Source: a virus. From it: a DNA stretch of 21,171 nucleotides. The notes below the pieces were generated by a model, which saw only the letters and a list, made by a program, of their open reading frames with translations, was not told the origin of the DNA and made no database searches. Position 1 is the first letter of the stretch. The number at the start of each line of letters is the position of its first letter. The stretch spans positions 1 through 21,171 of the IMG/VR virus record IMGVR_UViG_3300031707_000223. The stretch is one strand, 5' to 3'. The position numbers and the translations under genes are program-made. This document shows, one piece after another, positions 3,382-7,050 of the stretch.

Positions 3382-3720
3382 TCATTCAGGTTTAATATTC
3401 TTTTCTTTCCATTCATCAATAATTTGTTGTTTTGTTTTAGTCCGTGTTAATTCTATTATTTTAATGTGATCCAAATTAAGACCTTTGCAAGTATCAAAAA
3501 TACACTCTTCAAGTAGTGTAAATTTGTCATATAATGCATCTGTAAAATCACAGTTTATAAATGTGCATCGATAAAAACAAACGTTTGAAATTTTGATATT
3601 TTTAAACGATTGATTTATAAATTTACATTGATCAAAATGTATGTTTGATAAATCAGATGAAACTTTAGGAATTTCTATTGATCCAAAACTTATTTTTAAT
3701 TGTGGTAATCGCTTTATCAT
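3382..3720 (-). CDS. Pentapeptide-repeat-like protein
   Basis: This 112-aa protein has an AGGGAG ribosome site before its ATG. Residues about 27-75 contain spaced phenylalanines and cysteines in five-residue steps (FDQCKFINQSF, then CTFINCDFTDA and CIFDTCKGLN), fitting a short right-handed quadrilateral beta-helix of the pentapeptide-repeat type. The last 30 residues are a charged helix (KTKQQIIDEWKEKN). Pentapeptide proteins can mimic DNA or act as structural scaffolds, but function here cannot be given. The core is short (about three turns), so the family call is tentative. It follows the P-loop gene and a hairpin at 3733-3760. Confidence 0.55.
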   Translation of the reverse strand: MIKRLPQLKISFGSIEIPKVSSDLSNIHFDQCKFINQSFKNIKISNVCFYRCTFINCDFTDALYDKFTLLEECIFDTCKGLNLDHIKIIELTRTKTKQQIIDEWKEKNIKPE

Positions 3721-4258: not shown

Positions 4259-4416
4259 TGGTTTTCCTTCAATATAGTTTTACTGTTTTTATCGTACAAA
4301 AACAGCATTGTGTTACTCACTTGCCAACCTGTGTATCCCTTACTTTTTAAATATATCAAATATTCAATTGCTTTGGGGTCTTTAGTTGGATCGATTATGT
4401 TCGGATTAGAAACCAT
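4255..4416 (-). CDS. Hypothetical 53-aa protein
   Basis: ATG at 4414-4416 follows a GAGAGGAAG ribosome site; TGA at 4255-4257 overlaps the ATG of the P-loop gene (ATGA). The protein begins MVSNPNIIDPTKDPKAIEYL and continues with a helix, a GYTGW turn and an amphipathic strand, a compact soluble profile. Not recognised. The start lies inside the end of the reading frame that stops at 4406. The gene is one of several overlapped mini-genes between the Tad1-like gene and the P-loop gene. Confidence 0.6.
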   Translation of the reverse strand: MVSNPNIIDPTKDPKAIEYLIYLKSKGYTGWQVSNTMLFLYDKNSKTILKENQ

Positions 4417-4498
4417 ATTCTTCCTCTCTATGCATTAAAATAAATTCAGCCGTTAAAAATAACGGTCTTATACTTTCGTTTATTACAGGATGTTTCAA
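4406..4498 (-). CDS. Mini-reading frame homologous to nearby gene pieces (start uncertain)
   Basis: One frame on the minus strand is open from about 4564 to TAA at 4406-4408. It encodes GRLYRIQKKATERR (found in similar form in the 42-aa gene at 4979-5107), then INESIRPLF and the end LTAEFILMHREEEYGF. The C-terminal 16 residues resemble the end of an upstream piece, VTKEFINAYREKGFGF, in the same frame (stop at 4565-4567). No ATG exists in this frame. A TTG at 4496-4498 with GGAG 9 bases upstream would give 30 residues. A -1 shift from the 33-aa frame at AAAAAAAAG (4516-4524) would include the conserved LYRIQ-like part only from KK onward. Coding is supported by homology, but the route of translation is open. 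Confidence 0.4.
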   Translation of the reverse strand: MKHPVINESIRPLFLTAEFILMHREEEYGF

Positions 4499-4596
4499 GT
4501 TTCTTCGCTCCGTAGCTTTTTTTTGTATGCGATATAAACGTCCTGAAACAAGTTTTCTTCCATTTTAAAACCCGAATCCTTTCTCTCTGTAAGCAT
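4495..4596 (-). CDS. 33-aa frame with dnaX-like slippery run
   Basis: ATG at 4594-4596 (or the internal ATG at 4561-4563) opens a frame that stops at TGA 4495-4497: MLTERKDSGFKMEENLF, then QDVYIAYKKKLRSEET. The codons TAC AAA AAA AAG contain A_AAA_AAG in zero frame, the heptamer that drives -1 frameshifting in E. coli dnaX. A -1 shift enters the longer frame ending at 4406 and would make an about 63-residue product. No strong stem follows the slip site, and an AGGA-like stimulator 16 bases upstream is weak. The GAGAAAGGA sequence precedes the internal ATG by 13 bases. It may be a small real gene or a frame-shifted remnant. Confidence 0.35.
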   Translation of the reverse strand: MLTERKDSGFKMEENLFQDVYIAYKKKLRSEET

Positions 4597-4620: not shown

Positions 4621-4977
4621 TTACGCTTCTCGTTTGCCCTCTACATTGCGTTTAATTCGATCCTCAGTTCTTTTATTAATCCACATCAAAGCTTCATCTA
4701 ATTTTGTGATAGCTATTGAATTTTCACGGCAAGGAAATGTTTTATTGAACCGTTCAATAATTATCTTTGCCGCTTCAATCATTGCTGGGTACTGACAACC
4801 ATTCACACCAACTAAGGATATTGCATCGGATTGCAGTTGGAATGAAATGGTTTTACAAGGATGATTTATGGTGATAAATTTATCATTTTCAAATTCTATT
4901 GGGTCATTTCCAGAAATTTCACAAACTTCATAGCCTGCCAATTCTTTAATTCCTTCAAGCGTTTCCATTGTTTTCAT
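4621..4977 (-). CDS. tad1: Tad1/Acb2-type cyclic-nucleotide sponge (anti-Thoeris/anti-CBASS)
   Basis: This 118-aa protein has the signature of the Acb2/Tad1 domain family: strand KTISFQLQ (43-50), then VGVNG (56-60), a long helix, and [18 protein letters not shown] (82-99) followed by [15 protein letters not shown]. Known members form oligomers that bind signalling molecules such as gcADPR isomers (Thoeris) or cGAMP and cyclic trinucleotides (CBASS) and thereby block abortive defence; binding by this copy is inferred. Residues 1-42 are an N-terminal extension I cannot place. The start has AAGGAG upstream and lies 1 base from the stop of the 42-aa gene. It is made with RecT and RHH genes, so it would be expressed early, as suits an anti-defence protein. 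Confidence 0.72.
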
Positions 4978-4978
4978 T

Positions 4979-5107
4979 TTATTGCTCCTTTTTAATTTTA
5001 AAATGAGTATTCATTCGTTCCATTTCAACTAAACTACGTCTTCCCGTAGCTTTTTTCTGTATTTTGTATAAATGTTCTGCTGCTGGCTTCGCTCCCTTCT
5101 TTTTCAT
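4979..5107 (-). CDS. 42-aa basic protein overlapping the RHH gene
   Basis: ATG at 5105-5107 is preceded by AGGAG with 10 bases spacing, and the frame ends with TAA at 4979-4981, just before the Tad1-like ATG. Its first 74 bases lie inside the 3' end of the RHH gene in another frame. It begins [20 protein letters not shown] and continues with [10 protein letters not shown], is strongly basic and probably one long helix. The stretch [12 protein letters not shown] is matched by LYRIQKKATERR about 0.5 kb further left at 4480-4540, which supports the reading frame. Function unknown. Confidence 0.6.
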
Positions 5108-5252
5108 TGTTTTTTAGCTCCTGAAATCGAAACAAATAAATCGCTAGTGCAGACACGACAATATCAGTCATCGTGTCCTTTTTTGAAATCGATAGTTTTT
5201 TTAATTGCTGGAACAAATCGTTCGGTATTCTGCAATGGATTGTCTTTTTCAT
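5034..5252 (-). CDS. Ribbon-helix-helix (CopG/Arc-type) DNA-binding protein
   Basis: The first 45 of 72 residues match the RHH pattern: a short strand KTIHCRIPNDL, helix FQQLKKLSISK, turn with DTMTD, and helix IVVSALAIYLFRF. Such proteins dimerise and bind palindromic operators through the strand. The tail after residue 47 is charged and low in hydrophobics. The ATG overlaps the RecT stop (ATGA), so it is coupled to recT. In phage recombination operons such a protein can repress its own promoter; the palindrome at 7096-7107 in the leftward promoter is a candidate site. The gene's end overlaps the 42-aa gene. Confidence 0.75.
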   Translation of the reverse strand: MKKTIHCRIPNDLFQQLKKLSISKKDTMTDIVVSALAIYLFRFQELKNNEKEGSEASSRTFIQNTEKSYGKT

Positions 5253-6088
5253 CGGTTGAATGGGTCGTATTCTTGTTCAGGACTATTGTTTTCTTGATAG
5301 ACTGGGGTCTCTGCTTGCTGGCGATCCGGTTCAGGATTTTTAATATCGATAAAATCATCACTAGTTTTTATATCGTAAACTTCGTTCTTAACTTCCGACA
5401 TATTCAGCGATATATCAGATTTAACGCTATTGTCTTCCGATATAGCATTCGCAAGCTCGATTGCTTTTGGTGCAAATTTTAGCACTTTTATTAAAACCGT
5501 CTTCATCGCCATCGCGTCAAAATCGCTTTTCCAAGGACCATAATCAAATGCTTTCGAAAATTTCTTAGCGTGGCGAGTAACGGCATCTCTACTCATGACT
5601 TCAAAACCCTGACCATCTGACACGGTTTTAAATCTAGCGTAATAAAATATCGGTTCACCTGTTTGAAGTTTTGCCGGTTTGTGAATTAATTTCTGGTCCA
5701 TTCCTAATTCATATTCGAAAATATCCTCTTGATAAACACAATGCGCGGATATTTCCCTAAATGATTTTGTTCTATTCGCTAAATCTATCAATCCTTGATA
5801 GCCAATTTGGAAGTTCGCTTTTTTACCATAGGGGATTATATACGCTTGTCCCAGTGGTGTATTAGGTTCTAATCCTAATTGGGCTGAATTCATCACAGCG
5901 GCAAGGATCGACATTGAATCACACTCTTTTAACTTCGGATTGCTGTTGTATGCTGTCAGCGCAATCCGAAGCATTCTGTCTGATGTCATATGTTTCGGTA
6001 TTGCCATTTCAATCTGACCTTTCATCGAGATCAATAGCTCCTGAAAGGTTTTCGGTTTATTTGTATTGCTGACTAGTGAATTGCTCAT
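5249..6088 (-). CDS. recT: RecT-family single-strand annealing protein
   Basis: This 279-aa protein anneals complementary single strands and works with a 5'-3' exonuclease in phage recombination. Seen here: MTSDRMLRIALTAYNSNPKL, then ILAAVMNSAQLGLEPNTPLG, the YIIPYG...FQIGYQGLIDLA core, and GPWKSDFDAMAMKTVLIKVL followed by FAPK, all hallmark segments of RecT. The ATG at 6086-6088 is chosen because AAAGGAG lies 8 bases upstream; a further in-frame ATG at 6106 would place that ribosome site inside the gene. It overlaps the DUF1351 stop (ATGA). The partner exonuclease YqaJ is encoded divergently at 7152. The last 50 residues are acidic and disordered, a typical RecT tail. Confidence 0.93.
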   Translation of the reverse strand: MSNSLVSNTNKPKTFQELLISMKGQIEMAIPKHMTSDRMLRIALTAYNSNPKLKECDSMSILAAVMNSAQLGLEPNTPLGQAYIIPYGKKANFQIGYQGLIDLANRTKSFREISAHCVYQEDIFEYELGMDQKLIHKPAKLQTGEPIFYYARFKTVSDGQGFEVMSRDAVTRHAKKFSKAFDYGPWKSDFDAMAMKTVLIKVLKFAPKAIELANAISEDNSVKSDISLNMSEVKNEVYDIKTSDDFIDIKNPEPDRQQAETPVYQENNSPEQEYDPFNR

Positions 6089-7050
6089 GAAATTGCTCCT
6101 TTGCATTTACTACATTCGTTTTTTGATGCACCTTTGAATTCAATTTTCTTCACGATTAGAATCATTTTTAATTGCTCTACGTCTATACTATTTACAAGGA
6201 CTTGAAGAGTCACCCAACGTTTAGGGTTTGGGTTTGGATCTGCATTTATATCTGCAACTGGTTCATTTATTGACACAACGGCTGAATTTGTTTCAGGTTT
6301 GAATTCTGGAACATCCGCAAATTCTGAAATTGCGTCTTTAAGTCTTTGCTTTTCTTCCTGTTCTTTTTTTGACGCTTCAAGTTGCAGTCTCTTGACTTCC
6401 TTTTCTTCAGCAATGCGTTTTTGTCTTTCTTGTTCCTCTAGTACTTGTTTCTTGGTATATTCTAGTTCTTGCCGTTTTTTTAAGGCTTCCGATAAACTAA
6501 AATTCTCATAGTAAACTTTCATAATCAAATCTTCTGATTCAGATTGAAAATCTTTGATTGATTGAATTTCATCCTGGACTTTTTGAATTGAACCTTGAAT
6601 TGATTCCTGAATTGATTTAAAACTTTCAGTCTTATTCAACCATTTTTCATTGAAAAATCTATCCAGCTTTAAACCTGGCACATTGCAGACCGATAAGAAA
6701 AAACTTTCGATTTCTTTTTGCTTGCTTACTTTTCGTGCAGTTTCAAATTTTTCGAGTTGATCATCAAGACACTTGATCGGCTCGTTTATCATATCGATTA
6801 ACTCGTTTATTTTCGCTTTAAATTCATTGACCGGAATTACATATTCATTTGTAATTCGTTTCATCTCATCTTTTAAAGCTCCTGCCAGTTTATTTAGCGT
6901 TGCTCTATCCTGTTTGTACTCTGGTATTTTTTCTTCAATCACAACTAAATTCTGGTAGTTCTCAAGTCTAGCTTTTAAATCAATTTTTAATTCCTCAAAA
7001 TTGAAATTAACTGCTGGTGTAACTATCGGTTGTACGATAAGTTCTAACAA
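6085..7050 (-). CDS. DUF1351-like coiled-coil protein of the recombination module
   Basis: This 321-aa protein starts with TTG (7048-7050) preceded by GGGAGA at good spacing. Residues about 20-240 are nearly all helix with heptads: NFEELKIDLKARLENYQ, the DRATLNKLAGALKDEMKRI segment, and a long charged coiled coil (KKQVLEEQERQKRIAEEKEV). This matches the DUF1351 proteins that sit beside RecT and YqaJ in many phages. Residues 250-290 are a Pro/Asn/Ala-rich linker, followed by a small domain with RWVTLQVLV and an end containing CSKC. Function in the family is unsettled; a role in recombination or as a nuclease partner is inferred from gene position. It is first in the leftward transcript. Confidence 0.75.
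   Translation of the reverse strand: MLELIVQPIVTPAVNFNFEELKIDLKARLENYQNLVVIEEKIPEYKQDRATLNKLAGALKDEMKRITNEYVIPVNEFKAKINELIDMINEPIKCLDDQLEKFETARKVSKQKEIESFFLSVCNVPGLKLDRFFNEKWLNKTESFKSIQESIQGSIQKVQDEIQSIKDFQSESEDLIMKVYYENFSLSEALKKRQELEYTKKQVLEEQERQKRIAEEKEVKRLQLEASKKEQEEKQRLKDAISEFADVPEFKPETNSAVVSINEPVADINADPNPNPKRWVTLQVLVNSIDVEQLKMILIVKKIEFKGASKNECSKCKGAIS

Follow-up and report, generated by a model that had tools for sequence, protein, structure and literature searches.

Background

Tad1 sponges are already known, and another one is therefore to be expected. The characterised members sequester gcADPR, CDNs and CTNs in pockets lined not only by helices and the tail but also by loops, and they normally have an N-terminal beta-sheet (PMC12043709). 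In both Tad1 and Acb2, cyclic trinucleotides are reported to bind at the trimer interface (PMC12043709). The closest described proteins are the founding member from Bacillus phage SBSphiJ7 and the two Tad1s with solved structures, CmTad1 (8kbb-8kbd) and CbTad1 (7uav, 7uaw, 8smd, 8kbe-8kbh). Here we describe a Tad1-family protein of an environmental virus, which has the core of these proteins and a different front.

The tad1-family gene

The window, that is, the whole stretch of DNA analysed, comes to 21,171 bases and is a linear fragment of a virus. At about 36% identity, its capsid protein resembles those of BcepC6B and BPP-1-like podoviruses, and RecE-like, RecT, DUF1351, terminase, portal and tail genes can be recognised. 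The original prediction of an ORF at 4621-4977 was correct in position; the frame lies on the minus strand, opens with an ATG and encodes 118 aa followed by a stop codon. An AAGGAG lies 7 nt 5' of the ATG, and this ribosome-binding site was graded good/strong. The features of the locus are summarized in Table 1.

Table 1. Positions of the tad1-family gene, its parts and its neighbours in the window
Feature	Position	Strand	Basis
tad1-family gene	4621..4977	-	ORF, Pfam, PHROG, PDB sequence matches, AlphaFold model
Ribosome-binding site AAGGAG, 5' of the tad1 ATG	4985..4990	-	sequence
Type A (divergent) N-terminal region, comprising residues 1-42, with a short helix (3-7) and strands 16-21 and 35-38	4852..4977	-	AlphaFold model, profile comparison, environmental relatives
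Conserved Tad1 core (residues 43-118), made up of a strand, the GVNG loop, two long helices at 64-80 and 84-109, and a C-terminal tail	4624..4851	-	alignments, AlphaFold model, superposition
GVNG loop, residues 57-60	4798..4809	-	alignments
R84-E85-N86	4720..4728	-	PDB alignments, 49 relatives
R103, R107, R110 and NVEG tail, residues 103-114	4636..4671	-	PDB alignments
RecT, upstream in operon	5249-6106
72-aa ORF with weak Arc-repressor similarity, upstream	5034-5252
42-aa mini-ORF, upstream	4979-5107	-
AAA_28 P-loop protein, downstream; resembles AAA_28/kinase-like phage proteins	3767-4258
Pentapeptide-repeat protein, 112 aa, downstream	3382-3720

Assignment to Tad1 rather than Acb2

The Pfam family PF24729 (Acb2_Tad1_hairpin) matched residues 72-102 with 31.0 bits, against a curated cut-off of 27, and phrog_2428, which also spans canonical Tad1 end to end, matched the protein with an E value of 2.6e-18. 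A PDB sequence search with the window protein returned CmTad1 (8kbb, E 3.3e-10) and CbTad1 (7uav, E 1.5e-8); the corresponding values for a 49-sequence profile were 7e-31 and 5e-24. All PDB sequence matches of the protein were Tad1 except a weaker one to phage gp184 (8y6v), and no Acb2 chain was among them. Among the best matches in phage records were Tad1 genes from SPG24 and SBSphiJ7, with 46-49% identity over residues 43-117.

The original prediction had named the protein Tad1/Acb2-type, and only the Tad1 half of that name holds. On a Tad1 profile built without the window protein, the window protein scored 127.3 bits and SBSphiJ7 Tad1 127.6 bits, whereas T4 Vs.4, an Acb2, scored 8.4 bits. 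The match shared by T4 Vs.4 and the window protein covers 13 residues only, and the TKLxEAxMW signature of the hairpin is common to both. An Acb2 would have about 90 aa, one short helix plus a hairpin, and similarity to Acb2; what was found instead is a 118-aa protein with strands and a GVNG loop. The stretches that had been taken as family marks, among them VGVNG (residues 56-60) and residues 81-99, are present, but their pattern is that of Tad1 and not of Acb2. Judged by sequence, the family match lies far beyond chance and the protein belongs to Tad1, not Acb2.

We consider it unlikely that the protein acts as an Acb2-kind sponge, which would take up only the cyclic oligonucleotides of CBASS and not gcADPR. 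The hairpins of Acb2 and Tad1 belong to a single Pfam family, and the trimer interface of both proteins takes cyclic trinucleotides (PMC12043709); an altered N-terminal domain could abolish gcADPR binding while the helical core kept cA3 binding. The profile scores (127 against 8 bits) and the PDB sequence matches speak against it, as do the GVNG loop and the RxVEG tail, which the window protein has and which are missing from Vs.4 in the alignment. Vs.4 has no N-terminal strands either. The structural match lists also lacked an Acb2 chain, which does not count against Acb2.

Conserved core and predicted fold

The known pattern begins at about residue 43, as originally proposed; profile comparison aligns from about residues 43-44 onwards. 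Beyond the loop, the core carries NKRTEDR (residues 101-107) and NVEG (residues 111-114). Four residues that are invariant in 49 relatives, E85, N86, W99 and R103, are kept here, and so are all those found in at least 90% of the relatives (C83, R84, I90, T91, K92, E95, R107, R110, V112, E113 and G114). In the PDB alignments, N86, R103 and R107 align with N93, R110 and R114 of the CbTad1 construct, which by our own offset correspond to N92, R109 and R113 in native numbering. F77 and N86 are the counterparts of CbTad1 F82 and N92, which are reportedly mutation-sensitive ligand contacts (Leavitt et al. 2022).

The AlphaFold model of the window protein has a pLDDT of 93.1 and a pTM of 0.83, and the significant PDB matches found with it by Foldseek were Tad1 only. 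With VIA-align, residues 47-118 of the model (72 residues) superposed on CbTad1 (7uaw_A) at 1.4 Å with Z 8.4; the two C-terminal helices, the GVNG loop and the tail lie in the Tad1 arrangement. An unrelated fold or the loss of key residues had been named in advance as evidence against the family. The modelled core fold is that of Tad1, and the conserved core residues are all present.

A divergent N-terminal region

The first 42 residues had been described as an N-terminal extension. They are indeed unlike the known pattern; they are not an added domain, because the N-terminal domain of known Tad1s is of similar size: the stretch before the core is equally long or longer in SBSphiJ7 Tad1, and Tad1 normally has an N-terminal beta-sheet. 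In the model, a third predicted strand (residues 43-46) opens the core. When the N-terminal parts alone were compared with those of canonical Tad1 by profile, no homology was detected (E 0.2, one column), and the full-length profile comparison aligned only from about residue 44. Residues 1-46 of the model do not superpose on solved Tad1: an alignment extended to 97 residues has a deviation of 5.2 Å or more, in a monomer prediction where a hinge error is possible. A canonical control (L097), also modelled as a monomer, gave superpositions of 121-123 residues with both CmTad1 and CbTad1 (1.9-2.4 Å, Z 14.7-15.5). An ordinary Tad1 beta-sheet, plausible from the length and the predicted strands, was rejected since the control superposed fully and the window protein did not, and since no N-terminal profile match was found. 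The N-terminus is a divergent replacement of the canonical domain, common to an environmental branch.

The environmental type A branch

About 40 environmental viruses have the type A N-terminus (ETLxGIxxIgGF...). A scan of viral contigs with the window protein alone yielded no relatives; a four-sequence alignment recovered L012-L026 and others, and the N-terminus alone recovered 36 environmental loci. In all but two of these 36 loci, the type A stretch is followed in frame by the GVNG loop (or an equivalent) and the hairpin region; of the two exceptions, one is a truncated contig end and the other, L147, has a strongly diverged hairpin half that is cut short. Most type A relatives carry an extra insert of about 17-19 residues (DELREKFPEKFNESGAMDYKWFE), which the window protein and L012 lack; the N-terminal signature itself is shared with relatives such as L012, L016, L145 and L147. 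A viral UniProt entry of 135 aa, A0A516MPI8, matches the whole window model (TM 0.85 by query length).

In a tree of the 77-residue core, the window protein groups with the type A rows (92/85), the SBSphiJ7-like rows fall elsewhere, and the label needs two changes. The branch is poorly resolved because of the few columns, and the branch of the window protein is long (0.99 changes per column). Other members of the family have an MRHVEKAL-type N-terminus or almost none. Two Brochothrix phage forms of 79 aa (L004, 2495-2734; L009, 1495-1734) keep the core with the N-terminal domain almost absent, and they offer a natural test of the need for this domain. No characterised member of the type A branch was found. 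The window protein is a compact form of an environmental branch that differs at the front from the Tad1s studied so far.

The REN motif is intact in 21 of the 36 type A loci and not intact in the other 15, one of which is the truncated contig end. In L115, L119, L122, L131, L132, L137, L140, L144 and L146, CREN is changed to CIEN, CHEN, CKEN, CEEN, CPEN, CDEN or CWEN; several of the altered relatives also lack W99, and N86 and the VEG tail stay. Because some relatives have lost the CREN arginine or W99, the branch may be shifting ligands. It is quite improbable that the window protein itself belongs to a repurposed branch that uses the Tad1 core for a different nucleotide signal or another ligand. 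The replaced N-terminal domain and the altered REN and W99 positions would fit this reading, but the window protein keeps every family-invariant core residue, and N86 is retained in nearly all diverged relatives. A decayed or non-functional remnant, which the long core-tree branch and the fragmentary contig might suggest, is very improbable given the intact ORF, the strong ribosome-binding site, the full set of core residues and the confident full-length model.

Proposed function

We consider it highly probable that the gene product is a nucleotide sponge of the Tad1 family, and the sponge is very likely functional. Family membership and core fold are read from sequence and model, and we infer sponge activity from the characterised homologues. 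Gene order suggests that the protein would be produced early, alongside the phage recombination genes. It would assemble through the two-helix core, as characterised Tad1 forms a hexamer of three dimers, and would bind, without cleavage, gcADPR from Thoeris TIR enzymes and/or the cyclic di- and trinucleotides of CBASS. With these nucleotide alarm signals sequestered, the effectors would stay inactive.

Loops line the pockets of characterised Tad1s in addition to helices and tail, and with the type A N-terminal domain the ligand set could therefore be different. An independently acquired replacement that gives this widespread environmental branch a different signal specificity, for example for a cyclic nucleotide or a cADPR isomer that canonical Tad1 does not bind, is a tentative and rather doubtful proposal.

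Neighbouring genes

The genes between 3074 and 5107 had been put forward as further counter-defence candidates. This found no support in PADLOC, which holds defence models only, or in Pfam, PHROGs and NCBIfam; against the defence models, no neighbour matched except for a generic methyltransferase similarity at 2266-2820. The mini-genes near tad1 have no database relatives, and the 42-aa ORF has none in phage records. Short ORFs also lie downstream of tad1, where the pentapeptide-repeat protein shows weak similarity to Qnr-type proteins.

Residues 1-122 of the P-loop protein are 45% identical to a Myxococcus phage Mx1 protein annotated as nicotinamide-nucleotide adenylyltransferase, which is encoded near a nicotinamide phosphoribosyltransferase; its other relatives are mostly annotated as thymidylate kinase or hypothetical. 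A role as NAD kinase was considered suggestive only and was set aside; the PDB gave no NadR match. With an anti-Thoeris gene close by, a connection to NAD metabolism would be of interest if true, and it is unproven.

The 42-aa mini-ORF upstream and another at 4406-4545 (minus strand) flank tad1 and share a 36-nt stretch with 81% identity. The shared frame includes LYRIQKKATERRNL in one copy, and the likeness is at the protein level because several of the changes are synonymous. The 4406-4545 copy has no in-frame ATG, GTG or TTG 5' of the motif and overlaps another ORF. We also considered programmed frameshifting in the mini-gene at 4495-4596 and rejected it: LYRIQ is already encoded in the homologous frame ahead of the A-run, and that frame would therefore not arise by slippage at this place.

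In four Bastillevirinae phages (L002, L005, L006 and L007), a tad1-like gene is followed immediately downstream by a RecA-like gene, and in the window and L044 the genes close to it are RecT/RecE-like. An association of Tad1 with recombination genes may be frequent.

Comparison with characterised Tad1 proteins

The function proposed for the window protein is ordinary; its structural branch is uncharacterised. Several branches of the Tad1 family have the helical core in common but differ in their N-termini, which fall into at least three types unrelated to one another or are almost missing. That offers a natural variable with which to ask what part of a sponge determines ligand choice. At 118 aa, the window protein, as the compact form of one branch, is a convenient test case.

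With SBSphiJ7 Tad1, the window protein shares the strand, the loop (GANG there), the helical hairpin and the R-VEG tail, with 46% identity over 76 aligned positions (residues 43-117) and an equal family-profile score. The N-terminal 65 or so residues of SBSphiJ7 Tad1 are unrelated to it in sequence, and the SBSphiJ7 gene, in a herellevirus, has a RecA-like gene immediately downstream. With CmTad1 and CbTad1, it shares the glutamate, the asparagine and the tail arginines, and the helical core of CbTad1 superposes on its own, whereas the solved N-terminal beta-domain of both proteins is unlike the one modelled here.
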